IMG/VR virus record: IMGVR_UViG_3300050821_006434
Coordinates: 1 to 38,444 of that record
DNA from: a virus
DNA: 38,444 nt
Direction: 5' to 3' (one strand)
Positions 6,124-22,373 of the stretch are shown in pieces; the stretch's first letter is position 1, and the number at the start of each line of letters is the position of its first letter. Below the pieces are notes generated by a model. That model ran no database searches. It saw only the letters and a program-made list of their open reading frames with translations, and was not told the origin of the DNA. The position numbers and the translations under genes were made by a program.

Positions 6124-6251
6124 TGATGATTGGCAGGAATTGCACCTACTATACCCAACGTATTTACTAATGTCCCTACCCAGGATTAAGTATGGCCTTA
6201 TGCAAAGCCTTTTTGTTTGGATCCGCTTCACTGTCAGCAGCGCAATCATCA
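6124..6251 (-). ncRNA. tRNA-like structured RNA element, copy B
   Basis: Read on the minus strand: 5' arm TGATGATTG (6243-6251) pairs perfectly with CAATCATCA (6124-6132), 9 bp. After a 2-nt linker comes a hairpin, CTGCT/AGCGG, with loop GACAGTGA (6228-6235). At the 3' side GTAGG/CCTGC (6133-6149) encloses loop TGCAATT and stacks directly on the closing stem, as T-arm and acceptor do in tRNA. The 73-nt insert contains a further hairpin GGCTTT/AAGGCC with loop GCAT (6194-6209). Both conserved loops are identical to those of copy A at 21475-21688 while stem sequences differ in compensating ways. The element begins 3 nt after a small gene's stop and lies before the scaffold promoter. Confidence 0.75.
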
Positions 6252-10968: not shown

Positions 10969-12522
10969 CTAGCTGTATAGTTTAGCGCGAGCCTCATTAT
11001 ACTCACGGCTCTTTTTTCCAATTATACCAGCTATGTCATTTTTTGTATCATTGTTTAGTGCGTGTTCTGGCATGGCGAACGTTAGGGCTAGCGCGTCGGC
11101 TTCGTCTGGGGATCTTATACCGCGCTTCTTCATATCAGCTTTCTTTTCCATGACTAAGCGACTATTGGAGTCCACAGTGTACCGTATCCCGCAAAGATCT
11201 GCATGTAAACTGTCCTCGTCTGGTATTTGGCATGGCTGGTCATCCATCCATTTTTTGAGTTCTCCCCAAAGTTCCGCTCGTTTATTGTAGTAGCGACGGC
11301 TATCCAATGGCGTGGATCCACTGTTGACAGATACCAAGATTCCCCCGTGTCCAAGTTCCTTGAGCCTGTCGACCACCCCAGCTCCAAGGCCGCCCACGTC
11401 GACGAAAACCTTGAAGGGTTGCTCGGTAAGTATGATATTGTGTACGATCCCAACAATCTCCATTGTGTCTTTCTTGCTGTAACTCTCTTTGCCATAAGCA
11501 ACCCTACCTTTGCGCCTTATGATGCATGACCTATCATCCCCAAAGCGTGCTGGGTCAACGCCTAGCAGTAGTCTCCCATACTTTTCTGCGACTGTCTTTC
11601 GACAACGCATTACAAGGTCTGACTGTATGTACGAGTCCTCGCCGGTAAGTTGGAAGGCTTCAGTACTATTAAATGGGTATTCTTGTTTGAAGCCTTTCTC
11701 ACCATCCGTGCCATTCACTGACAACTCTGCAATCTTGTTGCGACGCCAATATAGTTGGTCGTCGGTGAGAAGATATTGGCTTGCAAGCTCATCTTCTTCG
11801 GCTGTTCTGGAGTAGTCGGATGGTATCGCTATCTTATATTCATCCTGCCAGTACCACGGCACAAATATTGCTATATATTCGGATTGTCCGGCCTCGGCCT
11901 TCTGCCATACCTGGTGAAAGTAATTACCTACACCATTAGCGGTTGACTCTAATATCACCTCAGTACCTGGCGCATTAGGAACTGCTTGCAGTATTCCCTT
12001 TGCGTGTTCCTCGGCATTATTCCAAAAGCCTACCTCGCTCCCATGCAATAGCTGAATAGTTGCAGAGCGCCCTACAGATTTGTTCTCAGCGGTACCTAGC
12101 TTGTAACCGGAGTCTAGCCTACCGAATATAAGTTCTTTGCTATTCGAGGTGGTAACCTCAGGCTTTACGAGTGGTGGCGTATTATCATAGAAACGTTGTG
12201 CCATTTTGTAGAGATTTTGGGTTGCATCTAATGCGTGAGTGAGGATGAATGCTTGTGCGCCAAATCTATGCGTGACTTGATGGTAAAACCTGCCACCTAC
12301 ATATGTAGAACAGCCCTGTTGGCGCCCTTTCAATATTATGGCACGTACCTTACCTGTAAGTGCCTTTTGTTCTTCTAGTCTTGCGTGTATGTGCTTTTGG
12401 GCTTTGTTGATTTGAAATGGCTCAATCCTGCCTTCTTTAGTGCGGATTTTGAGGCATTTTGAGGAGTAGTGTAAGAAGTCGTTTTTCAGGGAAAGTCGTA
12501 TTCTGCGCTCTTGTTCATCCAT
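10969..12522 (-). CDS. terminase large subunit (TerL), P22 gp2-like
   Basis: 517 aa (P22 gp2: 499). The ATPase Walker A is GRQQGCST (66-73), with the acidic segment HGSEVGFW (160-167) as Walker B and LESTANG (191-197) as coupling motif. The C-terminal RNase H-like nuclease has GVDPARFGDD (321-330), FVDVGGLGAG near 372 and SPDEADALALTFA near 480, carrying the metal-binding aspartates. TerL pumps DNA into the procapsid and cuts at headful. The gene overlaps the TerS stop by 8 nt, so translation is coupled. Confidence 0.95.
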   Translation of the reverse strand: MDEQERRIRLSLKNDFLHYSSKCLKIRTKEGRIEPFQINKAQKHIHARLEEQKALTGKVRAIILKGRQQGCSTYVGGRFYHQVTHRFGAQAFILTHALDATQNLYKMAQRFYDNTPPLVKPEVTTSNSKELIFGRLDSGYKLGTAENKSVGRSATIQLLHGSEVGFWNNAEEHAKGILQAVPNAPGTEVILESTANGVGNYFHQVWQKAEAGQSEYIAIFVPWYWQDEYKIAIPSDYSRTAEEDELASQYLLTDDQLYWRRNKIAELSVNGTDGEKGFKQEYPFNSTEAFQLTGEDSYIQSDLVMRCRKTVAEKYGRLLLGVDPARFGDDRSCIIRRKGRVAYGKESYSKKDTMEIVGIVHNIILTEQPFKVFVDVGGLGAGVVDRLKELGHGGILVSVNSGSTPLDSRRYYNKRAELWGELKKWMDDQPCQIPDEDSLHADLCGIRYTVDSNSRLVMEKKADMKKRGIRSPDEADALALTFAMPEHALNNDTKNDIAGIIGKKSREYNEARAKLYS

Positions 12523-14840: not shown

Positions 14841-14863
14841 GACATGCATCCTGCATAAAAACA

Positions 14864-14932
14864 TCCCCCAGCTTGGAATCGAACCAAGATCGGTCGCGAA
14901 CAGGCGACACTCTACCATTGAGCTACTGGGAA
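14864..14932 (-). tRNA. tRNA-like gene, possibly tRNA-Asn (GTT), with an abnormal anticodon loop
   Basis: Minus strand. Acceptor TTCCCAG pairs with CTGGGGG (two terminal U-G pairs), TA at 8-9, D-arm GCTC/GAGT with loop AATGGTA, and a perfect T-arm CTTGG/CCAAG with loop TTCGATT. The discriminator base is A and no CCA is encoded. The anticodon arm GTCGC/GCGAC closes only 6 nt, CTGTTC, instead of 7. If C-T occupy 32-33, the anticodon is GTT with C at 37, where a purine is normal. All tertiary-contact positions otherwise look intact. It lies alone between unrelated small genes. Confidence 0.6.
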
Positions 14933-15045
14933 AAACATACACCCACTAACAACAAAACAACATGCATCAATATAATCAAATGGTATATTTTTAATACAAC
15001 GAACTAGCAGTATAATACCAAGTGCACAGCCCACTAGGTGGTTTG

Positions 15046-15318: not shown

Positions 15319-15524
15319 TTTCCACCCGTTGGGGTCTGGTCGCACTTCTCGCAATAGGTACCATTTACCCATTCGTGATCACAATAGTTTTCTATCATTG
15401 ACTTTATTTTATTAAATATGTCCATTTCTTTGTTATTTTCAAATGTTTCAACATTTTTTATTTCACAACTATCTACGCCCCAGCATAATAGAAACTTAAG
15501 CTCTTCTTTCGTGAAATCATTCAT
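15315..15524 (-). CDS. NDFTKEEL-family zinc-ribbon protein, copy 5
   Basis: 69 aa, MNDFTKEELKFLLCWGVDSC ... KSMIENYCDHEWVNGTYCEKCD. One of five tandem paralogues sharing three blocks: the MNDFTKEEL start, a helix ending (I/L)xNYCDH(D/E), and a terminal CxxC. The Cys-x-His plus CxxC would bind one zinc. Coupled to its neighbours by short overlaps. No known family named. Confidence 0.75.
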   Translation of the reverse strand: MNDFTKEELKFLLCWGVDSCEIKNVETFENNKEMDIFNKIKSMIENYCDHEWVNGTYCEKCDQTPTGGK

Positions 15525-15702
15525 CTAAAACTTTCCCGCATTTCTCGCATTCAAGCGTAAAATAAGAAATTGGAACTAACTTGTCATGATCGCAATATTT
15601 CAGAATCAAAGAACCTATTTTTTTTAATAGTTCTTTTGTCTTGTCGAAATTAGCCAAATAGCAGTACATTAACTCTAGCTCTTCTTTAGTAAAGTCATTC
15701 AT
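15517..15702 (-). CDS. NDFTKEEL-family zinc-ribbon protein, copy 4
   Basis: 61 aa from ATG 15702 (MNDFTKEELELMYCYLANFD), chosen by homology to the other copies. The middle helix carries KKIGSLILKYCDHDKLVP and the end has LECEKCGKVLDE. Overlaps the previous and next genes by 8 nt each. Confidence 0.75.
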   Translation of the reverse strand: MNDFTKEELELMYCYLANFDKTKELLKKIGSLILKYCDHDKLVPISYFTLECEKCGKVLDE

Positions 15703-15895
15703 CCCCAGCCTCGCAAAAATCCAATAAAGCATGAGCAAATATCAATGCCTGGCGTTTATTCAAAAACAATGAGGCTTTCCAGTGAGTCAGATCTCTTTTT
15801 TCATCACCTTGAATCGCAACCAAAATATCACCGTTGCTATCATAATTAATCGATATTTCGGTTTCGTTTGTGTCTTTAAAATTTAATGTTTTCAT
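15695..15895 (-). CDS. hypothetical small protein inside the tandem array
   Basis: 66 aa from ATG 15895 (MKTLNFKDTNETEISINYDS), then ILVAIQGDEKRDLTHWKASL and a helical end. It lacks the NDFTKEEL and CxxC blocks and so is unrelated to its neighbours, although it is overlapped by both. Beta-hairpin then helix is likely. Start lies just after the tiny 18-aa frame. Confidence 0.6.
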   Translation of the reverse strand: MKTLNFKDTNETEISINYDSNGDILVAIQGDEKRDLTHWKASLFLNKRQALIFAHALLDFCEAGDE

Positions 15896-15897
15896 AA

Positions 15898-15954
15898 TCA
15901 ACGCCCACCATTCTTGATTTCATATTCTAGATCTTCTTTCTTGAAGTCATTCAT
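15898..15954 (-). CDS. 18-aa remnant or minimal NDFTKEEL copy
   Basis: MNDFKKEDLEYEIKNGGR then stop. It matches the first nine residues of the tandem family (MNDF-KEEL type) but ends before the zinc-binding part. ATG overlaps the previous stop by ATGA, as for the full-length copies. Probably a truncated duplicate, or a leader that couples translation to the next gene. Confidence 0.5.
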   Translation of the reverse strand: MNDFKKEDLEYEIKNGGR

Positions 15955-16217
15955 TTATCGACCTCCAATAAATCCACGATTTCACTAAAATCATAATATT
16001 TAAATTTCCCCCATAATTTAAGCCCGCACTTTTCGCATTCACATTTTGCGTTAGGGCAATAGCAATCAGGAAGAAATTCATGATCGCAATAGTTCTCTAT
16101 CAATTCTTTTATTTTGCTTAGTAATTCTATACAGTCACTATTTTGTCTAAATATATTAACGTTCTGCAAAGCTAAATGTTTTAGCATGATTAATTCTTCT
16201 TTAGTGAAATCATTCAT
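15951..16217 (-). CDS. NDFTKEEL-family zinc-ribbon protein, copy 2
   Basis: 88 aa, MNDFTKEELIMLKHLALQNV, then LIENYCDHEFLPDCYCPNAK followed by CECEKCGLKLWGKFKYYD and a C-terminal extension. More cysteines than other copies. Start coupled by ATGA to the upstream copy. Longest of the five. Confidence 0.75.
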   Translation of the reverse strand: MNDFTKEELIMLKHLALQNVNIFRQNSDCIELLSKIKELIENYCDHEFLPDCYCPNAKCECEKCGLKLWGKFKYYDFSEIVDLLEVDK

Positions 16218-16420
16218 AACTTAAGCCCGCATTTAGTGCAACTACATTGCGAATCAGGACAGCCACAGCAGGGATTTTCCCAGTCATGATCACAATAGTT
16301 TTCTATCATAGATTGTATTTTGTTGATCAATTTTTCACTATATAATGCTGAATCGCCATCCAGCCACCATGACATCCCATCTAATATTGATTCTAGCTCT
16401 TCTTTCGTAAAGTCATTCAC
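16214..16420 (-). CDS. NDFTKEEL-family zinc-ribbon protein, copy 1
   Basis: 68 aa from a GTG at 16420 (reads V/M-NDFTKEELESILDGMSWW), chosen by homology with its neighbours. Includes SMIENYCDHDWENPCCGCPD and ends SCTKCGLKL. The longer frame to 16513 would overlay the upstream gene. GTG use may lower its level relative to other copies. Confidence 0.7.
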   Translation of the reverse strand: MNDFTKEELESILDGMSWWLDGDSALYSEKLINKIQSMIENYCDHDWENPCCGCPDSQCSCTKCGLKL

Positions 16421-16679
16421 GATTGAAAATCCCAGGCAAAACAATCCCCAAACACACGGCCTGCACCACCATCTCCAATACAGAATATTTAAAATGATTA
16501 ACAAATATACCATTCATTATTGACACTGCAGAGAATTGTAAAAGCTTGTAAAGTATATGGTTTTGCATTAACCATCTGAAAAATCCACGCTTAACAGGCT
16601 TAAAAGGTTCACTTAAATAACAATAACAACATCCGCTTTCTAAATCATTAGGTACTTTGCAATTCGGGCATAGGTTCAT
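16413..16679 (-). CDS. small membrane protein with N-terminal zinc ribbon
   Basis: 88 aa from ATG 16679 (MNLCPNCKVPNDLESGCCYC). CPNC and CCYC form a likely zinc ribbon. Then a hydrophobic C-terminal half at about 40-85 (LQFSAVSIMNGIFVNHF, then LEMVVQAVCLGIVLPGIF) with one or two membrane segments. ATG overlaps the previous stop (TAATG). Zinc ribbon plus membrane anchor resembles 'double-zinc-ribbon' small membrane proteins of unknown role. Confidence 0.65.
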   Translation of the reverse strand: MNLCPNCKVPNDLESGCCYCYLSEPFKPVKRGFFRWLMQNHILYKLLQFSAVSIMNGIFVNHFKYSVLEMVVQAVCLGIVLPGIFNRE

Positions 16680-16855
16680 TATAAGCAACCCATAAAGTTT
16701 TCCCGAGCACGTTCACACGCCGTCTCAGCCTCAAGGTCACACAAAACCTTCCGTACTGCCTGCATACAATCAATCGCAGTAGCAATATCATGCGTATTGC
16801 AATCAAGGGATATTTGGTTAAGTAGCTCGTGTAGTTTTACGCTGTCGATTTGCAT
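16679..16855 (-). CDS. hypothetical small helical protein
   Basis: 58 aa, MQIDSVKLHELLNQISLDCN then CMQAVRKVLCDLEAETACER. Helical, with several Cys. TAATG couples it to the next gene; it begins inside the end of the first DUF551 gene. No family recognised. Confidence 0.6.
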   Translation of the reverse strand: MQIDSVKLHELLNQISLDCNTHDIATAIDCMQAVRKVLCDLEAETACERARENFMGCL

Positions 16856-17043
16856 TTCGGCTCCTCAATCGCCATCCAATGGGTCACATTACAAGCACAA
16901 TACCTACCCCAATCCTCATAGTAATACCAATGGCCGTCGTCGTAAATTACAACATCATAGCCTAGGTGGCCGTTACTTGTTGTGTTTATCAAACATACGG
17001 TTTTTCTGGGTGGCAGTTGTTCGGTAACGCTAATCCATTTCAT
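16837..17043 (-). CDS. DUF551-type protein, copy 3
   Basis: 68 aa from ATG 17043 (MKWISVTEQLPPRKTVCLIN), chosen by homology to the two next copies. DUF551 marks are WISVxxxLPP at the start, a GHWYYYEDWG middle, and VTHWMAIEEP at the end. Short ORFs of this family are common in phages and prophages; function unknown. Coupled to the upstream copy by ATGA. Confidence 0.8.
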   Translation of the reverse strand: MKWISVTEQLPPRKTVCLINTTSNGHLGYDVVIYDDGHWYYYEDWGRYCACNVTHWMAIEEPKCKSTA

Positions 17044-17252
17044 TCTGGGAACTCCGGTAATTCTGCCCAATGTGTTACGACTACCAGTTCATTCAGCATA
17101 TTCGTTCCATAAAACATACAACAATGTGTCCAAAAGCCAGTATGGGTCAAATGTCCAATCATTATCTCTTTATTGTGTTTTTCTGCAATTGCGAAATACA
17201 TAACCTCATGATAGGGATCGGGAAGTCTTTCTTCTACGCTAATCCAGTTCAT
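17040..17252 (-). CDS. DUF551-type protein, copy 2
   Basis: 70 aa from ATG 17252 (MNWISVEERLPDPYHEVMYF), with GFWTHCCMFYG and VVTHWAELPEFPE. The start lies in the last codons of the previous copy, in another frame, so the duplicated genes overlap by 14 nt. Confidence 0.8.
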   Translation of the reverse strand: MNWISVEERLPDPYHEVMYFAIAEKHNKEIMIGHLTHTGFWTHCCMFYGTNMLNELVVVTHWAELPEFPE

Positions 17253-17463
17253 TGGGTAATTCCTCAACCAAAAACCAATGAGTAACATATTTGCACCTAG
17301 ATCTTGAAATATTATCAATCAAAAGCCATGGAGAACAAACTATTTGCTCTTTGGGTATAGGGCTATAAATGCATCCAGAAATTAATCCATCTGCAATTTT
17401 CCTGTAAACTACTACAAACTGTCCAGGTTCCGGTAGATCATCTTCTACGCTAATCCAGTTCAA
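17239..17463 (-). CDS. DUF551-type protein, copy 1
   Basis: 74 aa read from a TTG (MNWISVEDDLPEPGQFVVVY), then a SPWLLIDNISRSRCKYVTHW ending and LVEELPNEL. Same blocks as the two downstream copies. TTG overlaps the stop of the 28-aa membrane peptide. Confidence 0.75.
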   Translation of the reverse strand: MNWISVEDDLPEPGQFVVVYRKIADGLISGCIYSPIPKEQIVCSPWLLIDNISRSRCKYVTHWFLVEELPNELD

Positions 17464-20163: not shown

Positions 20164-20936
20164 TGAGCATTCTAGACAAAATAATAACCCTAAAGCCCGC
20201 GGCTCCACGTATAACTATATACGGGAAGCCAGGAATAGGAAAAAGCACACTGGCTAGCCAGTTTCCAAAGCCTCTGTTCCTTTTGACTGAAGACCCTAGG
20301 CTTGACGGGATAAATGCCGTACCGACAACCAAGACATTTTTGGAGTTCTGGGAGAATCTTAAAGAACTATTGGCCATTGAGGACTTTCCATACGAGACGA
20401 TTGTAATTGACTCAATCTCAAAGCTTGATGCCCAAATAACCAAACACATCATAGACGAAGAAACAAACAACGGTGGCAACAAAAACAAGGTTACAACTTT
20501 GGGTGCTGCATGTGGCGGCTACGGGAAAGGATATGAACGAGCGCAAAGCATCCACCGGGCAGTAAAAGCGCAGCTGGACAAGTTTGTTGATAGGGGGATT
20601 GCGGTCGTGTTTATAGCGCATCTAGCAATTACTAAGTACAAAGCCCCAGATTCCGACGACTACGACATTTACTCTATCATTATGAACCATGATAAATCGC
20701 GTGAAGTCTATATAGATGACGTGGACGCTGTCTTGTTCGGTAGGCTTCAATCATTTACAGATACGCTAGACAGTGGTAAAAACATTGTTAAGAGCACAGA
20801 GCAAAGGATATTGGTTGCGTCGGTAAACGATGTGAACGTTGCAAAGAACAGGTTTTCAATGCCATCGCAAATACCTATGGAGTTTGAAGAACTTGCAAAA
20901 TACATCCCGTTTTATAATCAAGGAGAGACACAATGA
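20163..20936 (+). CDS. Sak4-type RecA-like ATPase (single-strand annealing)
   Basis: 257 aa. Walker A GKPGIGKST (21-29) and Walker B TIVIDSIS (79-86), then a VVFIAHLAITKYK segment with the conserved His after the beta strand, typical of RecA/DnaB-like ATPases called Sak4. The length is also typical. Sak4 proteins promote annealing of SSB-coated single strands and are the phage alternative to Redbeta. The directly downstream gene codes for an SSB-like protein, the usual partner. TAATG and ATGA overlaps bracket the gene. Confidence 0.85.
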   Translation: MSILDKIITLKPAAPRITIYGKPGIGKSTLASQFPKPLFLLTEDPRLDGINAVPTTKTFLEFWENLKELLAIEDFPYETIVIDSISKLDAQITKHIIDEETNNGGNKNKVTTLGAACGGYGKGYERAQSIHRAVKAQLDKFVDRGIAVVFIAHLAITKYKAPDSDDYDIYSIIMNHDKSREVYIDDVDAVLFGRLQSFTDTLDSGKNIVKSTEQRILVASVNDVNVAKNRFSMPSQIPMEFEELAKYIPFYNQGETQ

Positions 20937-21466
20937 GCTTTTGGCAATCACAATCAGGAACACCAATAGATGGAAGTGCGGAAAACGCGCATGTTGGGTC
21001 ATTGACCCCAATACCCAACGATACAACTGCCCCTGTTAGCATAAAGAGCATTGACCTTAAGAATTTCAACGGAGATGAGTTTTACCAGGCGGTTTATAGG
21101 ATCATAGAAGGTGACTACAAAGGCAGAGACGTTAGACATAATATTAAATGCTTCCAGGCAGATAAAAGCAAGCGCGATAGAGAGGTAAATATGCTTATGC
21201 GCCTGTACAAGGTGTGCGGAAAGACCCCCCCTGAAGATCATGCTCCAGACAATGATGAATTGCTGCCCTTAAGAGGTAGCGTCATAGGCGTTAAAATACA
21301 AGAATGGTTTTTCGATGGCAAAGAAGGAAACTGGATAAGTGAGATACATCCAGTAGATGATAAATTTAAGACAGAGACTGGTATCAAGGCAGTACACGAC
21401 TTAAGCAGTGCATTTAGCAGGAACGAGTCTAGGAAATCTGGGATTGATGATGATGTGCCGTTCTAA
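20933..21466 (+). CDS. SSB-like protein with acidic C-terminal tip (DUF669-like)
   Basis: 177 aa. It has a beta-rich core (SIKSIDLKNFNGDEFYQAVY, then GSVIGVKIQEWFFDGKEGNW) suitable for an OB-type or DUF669 fold, and it ends in GIDDDVPF, the acidic 'DDxPF' tip with which bacterial SSBs call their partners. Its place between Sak4 and the nuclease fits a strand-exchange module. Start overlaps the Sak4 stop by ATGA, with GGAGAG upstream. RNA element A begins 8 nt after its stop. Confidence 0.8.
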   Translation: MSFWQSQSGTPIDGSAENAHVGSLTPIPNDTTAPVSIKSIDLKNFNGDEFYQAVYRIIEGDYKGRDVRHNIKCFQADKSKRDREVNMLMRLYKVCGKTPPEDHAPDNDELLPLRGSVIGVKIQEWFFDGKEGNWISEIHPVDDKFKTETGIKAVHDLSSAFSRNESRKSGIDDDVPF

Positions 21467-21474
21467 TTGAACTA

Positions 21475-21688
21475 TGACAATAGCATCGCGGACAGTGACG
21501 CGACCTTAGATATGATAGGAGTGTGATAATGGGTGCTCTCGCTATTTGGTAACAAATAGGATAATCCATGAGAGCCTTGGCGTATAAGGGGCGCAACAAG
21601 AACTGACCATTTATCAATTGTTGAAAAGTCCCGGTTATATTTTTCAGCGAGTACCGCACATAGCAGGTGCAATTCCTGCCTATTGTCA
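21475..21688 (+). ncRNA. tRNA-like structured RNA element, copy A
   Basis: Closing stem TGACAATAG (21475-21483) with CTATTGTCA (21680-21688), 9 bp. Linker CA, then hairpin TCGCG/CGCGA with loop GACAGTGA (21491-21498). At the 3' side GCAGG/CCTGC (21663-21679) closes loop TGCAATT and stacks on the closing stem. The 159-nt insert folds further: GCTCTC/GAGAGC enclosing CTATTTG/CAAATAG capped by a GTAA (GNRA) tetraloop at 21542-21559, CAACAA/TTGTTG and CGGT/ACCG. A tiny frame with AGGAG site (MGALAIW) starts at 21522 within it. The element fills the gap between SSB-like and nuclease genes. See copy B at 6124-6251. Confidence 0.75.
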
Positions 21689-21710
21689 ACCTTACTTACA
21701 GGAGAACAAA

Positions 21711-22373
21711 ATGCTAAAAGGACAATCAATATCAAAGCTAATAGACGAAGCGGTAGTGAAATCGCATGTTGACGAAAATAGAGATTATATAGGTTCATCT
21801 TCTATTGGAAACCCTTGTTCGCGTGCTATTTGGTACGCGTACAAAGGGCATGAGAAAAAGCCCCTTACCGCCAAGCAGATACGCACGTTTGAAATGGGCA
21901 AGATACTTGAGGAGATGATTAAGGAGCAGGTGCGATTGCTTGGATTCCCTCTAAATGACGGCTCACAGTTTACGGCTTGCTACGACGATGAGGTGAAGGT
22001 TTTTCAGGGAAATGTAGATGGTCTGCTTGAGATAAATGGGCGTTATGTGGTTCTTGAAATAAAGACCGCTAATGATGCAAACTTTCAGGCGTTTTTTAAG
22101 AAAGGTTTAAAAGCATGGAGCCCTTCGTATTATGCCCAGGTTCAAGCTTACATGGGAATGAAGGGTGTTTCGGAAGCATATATAGTTGTATTAAACAAGA
22201 ATACCGCAGAACTTCACGATGAGCATGTTCAATTTGATGATATTTTTTATCATGAACTAAAGGCAAAGGCTAAGATCATATCAGAAGCAGAAGACCCTCC
22301 AGAACGTATTAATAAGAGCCCTTTGTTTTATGTTTGTGGTATGTGTCAGTATAAGGAAGTTTGTCATGGGTGA
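21711..22373 (+). CDS. Cas4/RecB-type PD-(D/E)XK nuclease with iron-sulphur cysteines
   Basis: 220 aa from ATG 21711, which follows AGGAGAACAAA; the longer frame to 21618 would lie in RNA element A. Active-site residues: Asp103 in GNVDGLLE and Glu116-x-Lys118 in VLEIKTA, then the QVQAYM motif (about 143-148). Cysteines at 36 (NPCSRAI) and at 209, 212 and 218 (CGMCQYKEVC) would bind a 4Fe-4S cluster as in Cas4/AddB. It probably trims DNA 5' or 3' ends to make the single strands annealed by the Sak4-SSB pair. Confidence 0.85.
   Translation: MLKGQSISKLIDEAVVKSHVDENRDYIGSSSIGNPCSRAIWYAYKGHEKKPLTAKQIRTFEMGKILEEMIKEQVRLLGFPLNDGSQFTACYDDEVKVFQGNVDGLLEINGRYVVLEIKTANDANFQAFFKKGLKAWSPSYYAQVQAYMGMKGVSEAYIVVLNKNTAELHDEHVQFDDIFYHELKAKAKIISEAEDPPERINKSPLFYVCGMCQYKEVCHG

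Follow-up and report, generated by a model that had tools for sequence, protein, structure and literature searches.

Locus and flanking genes

The DNA analysed here, referred to as the window, is a viral record of 38,444 bases. It carries genes for a terminase, a portal protein, a major head protein, a Sak4-like annealing protein, a single-strand DNA binding protein (SSB) and a Cas4-type exonuclease, and these marker genes identify it as the DNA of a tailed phage. Two copies of a tRNA-like RNA element, A and B, are found within it. Copy A (21475-21688, + strand, 214 nt) had been placed in a gap between the genes for SSB and a nuclease, and the flanking genes bear this out: upstream is the SSB gene (20933-21466, +; PHROG 9002, E 9e-16), with its stop codon 8 nt before the start of the copy, and downstream is a Cas4-domain exonuclease gene (21711-22373, +; PHROG 1990, E 1e-57), which is preceded by AGGAG at 21700-21704 (+). 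Copy B (6124-6251, − strand, 128 nt) lies within a leftward operon that holds structural genes, and a stop codon is located 3 nt before it.

The window has further features outside the two copies. An odd tRNA gene at 14863-14933 (−) is the sole tRNA match in the window (match at 14864-14932; Rfam tRNA, 40.6 bits); ARAGORN sees a 6-nt anticodon loop there and cannot name the anticodon, and the same odd gene is present at 12260-12330 (−) of a related contig, L032. Repeated ORFs at 15363-16513 (−) encode tandem small cysteine-rich proteins with NDFTKEEL and YCDH motifs in four to five copies, and at 16837-17463 (−) there are three small tandem ORFs with starts near MNWISVEE/LP and a spacing of about 210 nt.

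Anatomy of the two copies

Copy A begins with the 5′ strand of a closing, acceptor-like stem of 9 bp (TGACAATAG, 21475-21483), which pairs with the 3′ strand CTATTGTCA at 21680-21688; no CCA follows the latter. The linker CA (21484-21485) corresponds to tRNA positions 8 and 9, in which C8 is the proposed partner of G14. It is followed by a D-like arm (21486-21503) with a 5-bp stem that reads TCGCG-GACAGTGA-CGCGA, the loop being at 21491-21498. A T-like arm (21663-21679), also with a 5-bp stem, reads GCAGG-TGCAATT-CCTGC with its loop at 21668-21674, and directly abuts the closing stem. The minimum free energy fold of copy A (−68.3 kcal/mol, z −3.3, with none of 200 shuffles as good) holds all of these parts. 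The arms assigned in the preliminary description are each present where they had been drawn.

Between the D-like and T-like arms, an insert of 159 nt (21504-21662) occupies the place that the anticodon arm and the variable loop have in a tRNA. The structured nature of this insert and its GNRA tetraloop, both proposed earlier, are upheld by a hairpin at 21542-21559 capped by GTAA, which by eye has a counterpart with a GCAA loop in the related element L077:397-611. Further into the insert, the motif TATAAGGGG (21583-21591) is complementary to part of the motif TCCCGGTTATAT (21629-21640), and the pair is also present in L077:397-611; judged from this complementarity, the two motifs could possibly form a loop-loop contact.

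Copy B repeats this plan on the minus strand with a shorter insert of 73 nt (6222-6150). Its closing stem (6251-6243 with 6132-6124) is formed by TGATGATTG and CAATCATCA, its D-like arm (6240-6223) by CTGCT and AGCGG, and its T-like arm (6149-6133) by GTAGG and CCTGC. Common to both copies are the 9-bp closing stem, the 2-nt linker and the 5-bp D-like and T-like arms; the loops are identical, and the stems differ through compensated changes.

Family membership and covariation

A 16-nt T-arm pattern had at least 119 matches in viral DNA, and the complete element is present in a good part of those listed; further scans together with a structural descriptor extended the collection to about 90 distinct members. 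The consensus consists of an 8-bp closing stem (extended to nine pairs in about 60%), a linker of C plus G or A, a 5-bp D-stem with the loop GACAGTGA, the insert, then A, and a 5-bp T-stem with the loop TGCAATT. The outermost closing-stem pair is kept in 29 of 48 relatives; the 9-bp stem described earlier thus stands for copies A and B, and across the family the stem is one of 8 bp to which many members, including A and B, add a ninth pair.

Covariation was assessed in an alignment of 48 members from which A and B were left out. Paired combinations occupy 96.9% of its cells, a figure that is inflated because the descriptor demanded most of the pairs, and two-sided changes occur in 17 of 19 pairs; the multiplicity of pair types per position is not accounted for by the descriptor's pairing demand. 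The covariation score is 0.645, against 0.167 when shuffled (0 of 500 as high) and at most 0.114 with slid partners, and the closing stem of copy A is among the stems that covary.

The covariance model R1 was trained on the 48 other sequences, again without A and B. A scan of the window with R1 recovers exactly the two copies, A with 66.8 bits (E 1.5e-16) and B with 65.8 bits (E 2.9e-16), the next best match having 7.8 bits, and the assignment of A and B to one family is in this way borne out by a model that had seen neither. A covariance-model search had been set beforehand as the check on the family; in the retrieved loci, 127 matches reached 40 bits or more, a count that takes in the training rows and some near-identical contigs. 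Homologues that combine the loops GACAGTGA and TGCAATT with stems that covary are therefore numerous, as the proposal of a tRNA-like family implied, and the family and its fold are well supported.

The limits of the family are less sharp than those of the model. A second branch (L260:1754-1885 (−), L261:7421-7624 and L262:2511-2624) has the D-loop CACGGTGA, the linker GG and the canonical T-loop TTCGACT, and its R1 scores are weak, so that R1 probably does not capture the whole family. The T-loop TGCAATT also occurs in ordinary phage tRNA genes of L013, L026, L069 and L099, so that membership cannot be judged by this loop on its own. In a D-loop scan with GTTTGGTGA, 14 of 15 matches had none of the other parts and only L256 was real. 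No real match to isolated phages was obtained by blastn with the element or its consensus arms; BLAST needs longer conserved blocks than the element offers, and this result does not show absence from isolated phages. Relatives sought through the neighbouring exonuclease were not found in viral contigs.

Among bacterial genomes, the D-arm pattern gave 20 matches, of which five are clear full elements (L238, L239, L243, L247 and L251), which makes the family an essentially phage-borne one; the remaining matches, with few exceptions, have no matching T-arm and stem and serve as a negative control. A prophage copy (L280:9612-9807) in a single-contig Legionellales chromosome adjoins the terminase small subunit gene, and the other members found outside viral records are in few genome or MAG contigs, the element being rare in bacterial genomes. 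One of these, L239:5058-5167 (−), is in a 995-kb Planctomycetota MAG contig near a type I restriction specificity gene, and could be either a chromosomal copy or what is left of a prophage.

The tRNA-like body and its elbow

With positions numbered according to tRNA elbow geometry (PMC4810234), the loops of the element can be compared with those of tRNA pair by pair. In 103 typed members the 18-55 pair is A.G in 98, G.U in four and A.U in one, and the 19-56 pair is G-C in 96, A-U in three, G-U in two and A-C in two. C8 is found with G14 in 100 of the 103, and L261 has G8-C14, as the sequences of L260 and L262 also read. The two loops change together: the D-loop GACAAYGA goes with the T-loop TGTAATT in four of six loci, from two separate lineages, and the D-loop CACGGTGA or GTTTGGTGA, when in a full element, goes with the canonical T-loop TTCGACT or TTCGATT. 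In tRNA numbering these joint changes are 19-56 from G-C to A-U and 18-55 from A.G to G.U. Scans with the D-loop only, which are blind to the T-loop, agree with the elbow pairs; the rare elbow states represent few lineages. The length of the D-loop before AG varies (GAC-AG, GTTT-AG), as it does in tRNA.

The stacked acceptor and T stems, the D-arm and the elbow are thus features shared with tRNA, with an acceptor stem of 8 to 9 bp and a closing/T stack of 13 to 14 bp, compared with 12 bp in ordinary tRNAs. Covariation of the stems together with that of the elbow means that selection maintains the fold of a tRNA body in this RNA. An elbow of the tRNA type is kept, and in most members it has a different 18-55 pair, A18.G55 in place of G18-ψ55; the covarying elbow can be regarded as a natural experiment in rebuilding the tRNA body. 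A transposon-like element with terminal repeats was considered and rejected, as the sequence of the closing stem varies from member to member, with compensated changes.

An anticodon arm (5 bp with a 7-nt loop) after the D-arm was found in two of 129 members, compared with 3.3 expected in shuffles, and an anticodon arm hidden in the insert was accordingly rejected. No CCA is encoded, even in L229, where all the neighbouring tRNAs encode CCA. These findings bear on whether the elements could be decayed or intron-bearing tRNA genes nearing loss, for which there is some basis in the copies with the canonical loops CACGGTGA and TTCGACT and in four inserts that hold a second canonical T-arm where none was expected. 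This reading is largely refuted and very improbable: strong selection, visible as compensated changes, acts on the stems and elbow, unlike in pseudogenes, anticodon-arm-like hairpins are no more frequent than in shuffled sequence, and the inserts have neither constant splice ends nor an intron core. The four second T-arms, of the GTTCGA type, are in the inserts of L047:2645-2773 (−), L230:3163-3311, L006:2742-2915 and L005:12887-13016 (−); that of L047 is enclosed by a 7-bp stem, like a tRNA-like domain nested in the element.

The insert

Insert length ranges from 29 to 254 nt, with a median of 87, and the inserts are structured wherever a test was feasible. One of the shortest members, L027, is 86 nt long as a whole. 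The inserts are hypervariable, 91 being singletons with no sequence relative, and on average they fold only slightly better than their shuffles (mean z −0.7). Given this mean z and the lack of relatives for most inserts, a specific cargo function is weakly supported. One small insert subfamily has covarying hairpins of its own, including a GNRA-capped hairpin, and insert subfamilies are kept over 77 to 86% identity with compensated changes. The insert of copy A and that of L077:397-611 share the GNRA hairpin and the two complementary loop motifs; RNAalifold misaligned these two inserts, so their homology rests on comparison by eye. The type of insert is not tied to the neighbouring genes.

The contrast between a constant body and a variable insert could be explained if the body itself were the active part, as a decoy or inhibitor of a host tRNA-binding protein such as a tRNA-modifying enzyme, RNase P, the CCA-adding enzyme or a tRNA-targeting defence nuclease, with the insert varying either neutrally or to evade recognition. 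Fold and elbow are indeed strictly kept while the sequence of the closing stem drifts, some phages have several copies per genome, and an RNA that has no anticodon arm cannot decode. A decoy of a synthetase would, however, need a constant acceptor sequence, which the element does not have, anticodon nucleases would miss an RNA with no anticodon arm, and the compensated changes within insert subfamilies do not result from neutral drift alone. We regard such a decoy as doubtful.

Genomic position

The elements lie between unrelated genes, often no more than 10 nt past a stop codon, and no constant neighbour gene was found among the family loci, for which reason a cis-regulator of one particular gene was rejected. 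The nearest upstream ORF is co-directional in 66 cases and opposite in 20, so that the coding strand is the usual location. L018 and L033 have one insert and the flanking orthologues in common, yet one of these genes has the element on one side in L018 and on the other side in L033.

Most copies, including A and B, are located between protein genes and outside tRNA arrays. Elements in L229, L011, L115, L166 and L123 are embedded in tRNA arrays, 5 to 20 nt from tRNAs, a spacing like that of tRNAs themselves, and seven elements are within 150 nt of a same-strand tRNA called by ARAGORN, compared with 0.6 expected if placement were random (no more than 5 in any of 2000 trials). Tandem copies are also encountered, with four in L253, three in L166 and several in L133. 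Those of L253, a 118-kb phage contig, occupy about 700 nt (2201-2915, +) in a region rich in other possible structured RNA, and the middle copies have shortened D-loops and the T-loops TGAAAAT or TGCGAAT.

Positions of this kind could suggest that the element serves in cis as punctuation, a tRNA-like fold in a polycistronic mRNA that is cut, or that blocks exonucleases, so that the flanking mRNAs are separated or protected and the insert is filler. The location of copies between operon genes, shortly after stop codons and mostly in the sense orientation (as for both A and B), agrees with this, the varying neighbours would suit a generic signal, and inserts that are largely unalignable are what filler would look like. 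A plain hairpin or T-arm minihelix would suffice for punctuation, though, leaving 100-nt inserts with covarying hairpins unexplained, and tandem copies and copies in tRNA arrays separate no mRNAs. On balance punctuation in cis seems unlikely, though it deserves some weight.

Proposed function

The reading that we favour, and to which we would give an even chance, is that the element is a stable phage RNA excised by host tRNA enzymes, in which the tRNA body is the scaffold and the variable insert a cargo that acts in trans. The element would be co-transcribed with its neighbours and then excised by the host enzymes of tRNA maturation, RNase P at the 5′ end and either RNase Z or exonucleases at the 3′ end. 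Cleavage by RNase P or RNase Z, suggested earlier, is plausible from the position of the element, and RNase P is known to cut phage M3 RNA, phage C4 RNA and those precursors of T4 tRNAs that have no CCA (PMC11143913). The tRNA body would then act as a processing signal and as a nuclease-resistant scaffold, and the hypervariable insert would be the working part, active in trans during infection, for example as a ligand or decoy for a host RNA, nuclease or RNA-binding protein. Counting against this reading are the location of most copies, A and B among them, outside tRNA arrays, the weak case for a specific cargo function, and a closing/T stack that is longer than in ordinary tRNAs. A more specific version can be offered only tentatively: the element may be a natural tRNA scaffold with an A18.G55 elbow, by which host machinery is made to excise and stabilise a cargo, and the counter-host functions exerted in trans by that cargo may diversify in an arms race.

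The family, with more than 100 detected members in unrelated neighbourhoods and no entry in Rfam, shows that phages carry a sizeable class of tRNA-like RNA that has gone unannotated.

Comparison with known RNAs

A search of Rfam 15 at the gathering score, covering the window and 14 carrier loci, gave only tRNA matches and no match to GOLLD, ROOL or any other family; at weak thresholds there were only chance matches and the bare shared T-arm. Copies A and B are not called as tRNA by Rfam at the gathering score or by ARAGORN. No description of the RNA family was found in the open literature, most preprints and subscription papers being outside the search. As the preliminary description had supposed, the family appears to be undescribed.

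The closest likeness is to tRNA (RF00005), in the D-arm, the 5-bp T-arm with a 7-nt loop stacked on the closing stem, the elbow pairs 18-55 and 19-56, and the presence of copies inside tRNA arrays; in tRNA-Sec (RF01852) the acceptor/T stack is extended too. The element differs from both in having no anticodon arm, an insert of 29 to 254 nt, no encoded CCA, A18.G55 in most members, a closing stem of 8 to 9 bp and scores below the Rfam gathering score.

In tmRNA (RF00023) there is likewise a tRNA-like domain in which a large insert replaces the anticodon arm, and in the bacterial Y RNA YrlA, a modular noncoding RNA, a tRNA-like domain mimics the D, T and acceptor arms (PMC8394870), resemblances that could be taken to mean that the element is a divergent form of one or the other. 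We find this hardly credible. No match to either was obtained at the gathering score, and the only tmRNA signal is a fragment of 13.8 bits on the shared T-arm of L261. The phage element is far shorter than tmRNA and its D-arm has a full 5-bp stem; a tag reading frame would hardly fit into the shortest inserts, of 29 to 31 nt, and there is no constant G-U in the closing stem, whose pairs are almost all Watson-Crick, that would correspond to the G3-U70 alanine identity pair. YrlA is similar in length to the phage element, but in YrlA the Ro60-binding stem made by the two ends is separate from the tRNA-like domain, whereas the ends of the phage element form the acceptor-like stem on the T-arm. 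The Legionellales host of the prophage copy has a tmRNA of its own, and the Ro60/TROVE domain (PF05731) is absent from that genome, from the window and from two phage records. The earlier conclusion that the element is neither a standard tRNA nor a tmRNA therefore holds.

Among phage RNAs, GOLLD and ROOL are noncoding RNAs of phages and prophages, of unknown function and often near tRNA islands (PMC12286853); they are established families, much larger than the phage element and with other folds. Species 1 RNA (rnaC) and species 2 RNA (rnaD) of T4 are stable phage RNAs of unknown function within a tRNA cluster. Close to the 3′ end of the former is a T-arm of the tRNA type, GGTTCGAATCC, and the molecule also contains a large extra domain; unlike the phage element, neither has a D-arm with GACAGTGA. 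R1 finds nothing in the T4 region (L252) at E values up to 1, and rnaC was rejected as a homologue. The old question of the role of stable non-tRNA RNAs in phage tRNA clusters is reopened by the present family, and two resources for addressing it are now at hand: a covariance model, and a prophage copy whose host chromosome is a single contig.

In the laboratory tRNA scaffold, a tRNA body carries an RNA cargo in place of its anticodon arm. If the insert is a cargo, the phage element would be a natural counterpart of this design; the laboratory scaffold is man-made and the phage body has an elbow of its own and no encoded CCA, so that the comparison is one of working principle only. By kind, the element belongs with the tRNA-like noncoding RNAs, such as tmRNA, YrlA and T4 species 1 RNA, and it is a member of none of them.
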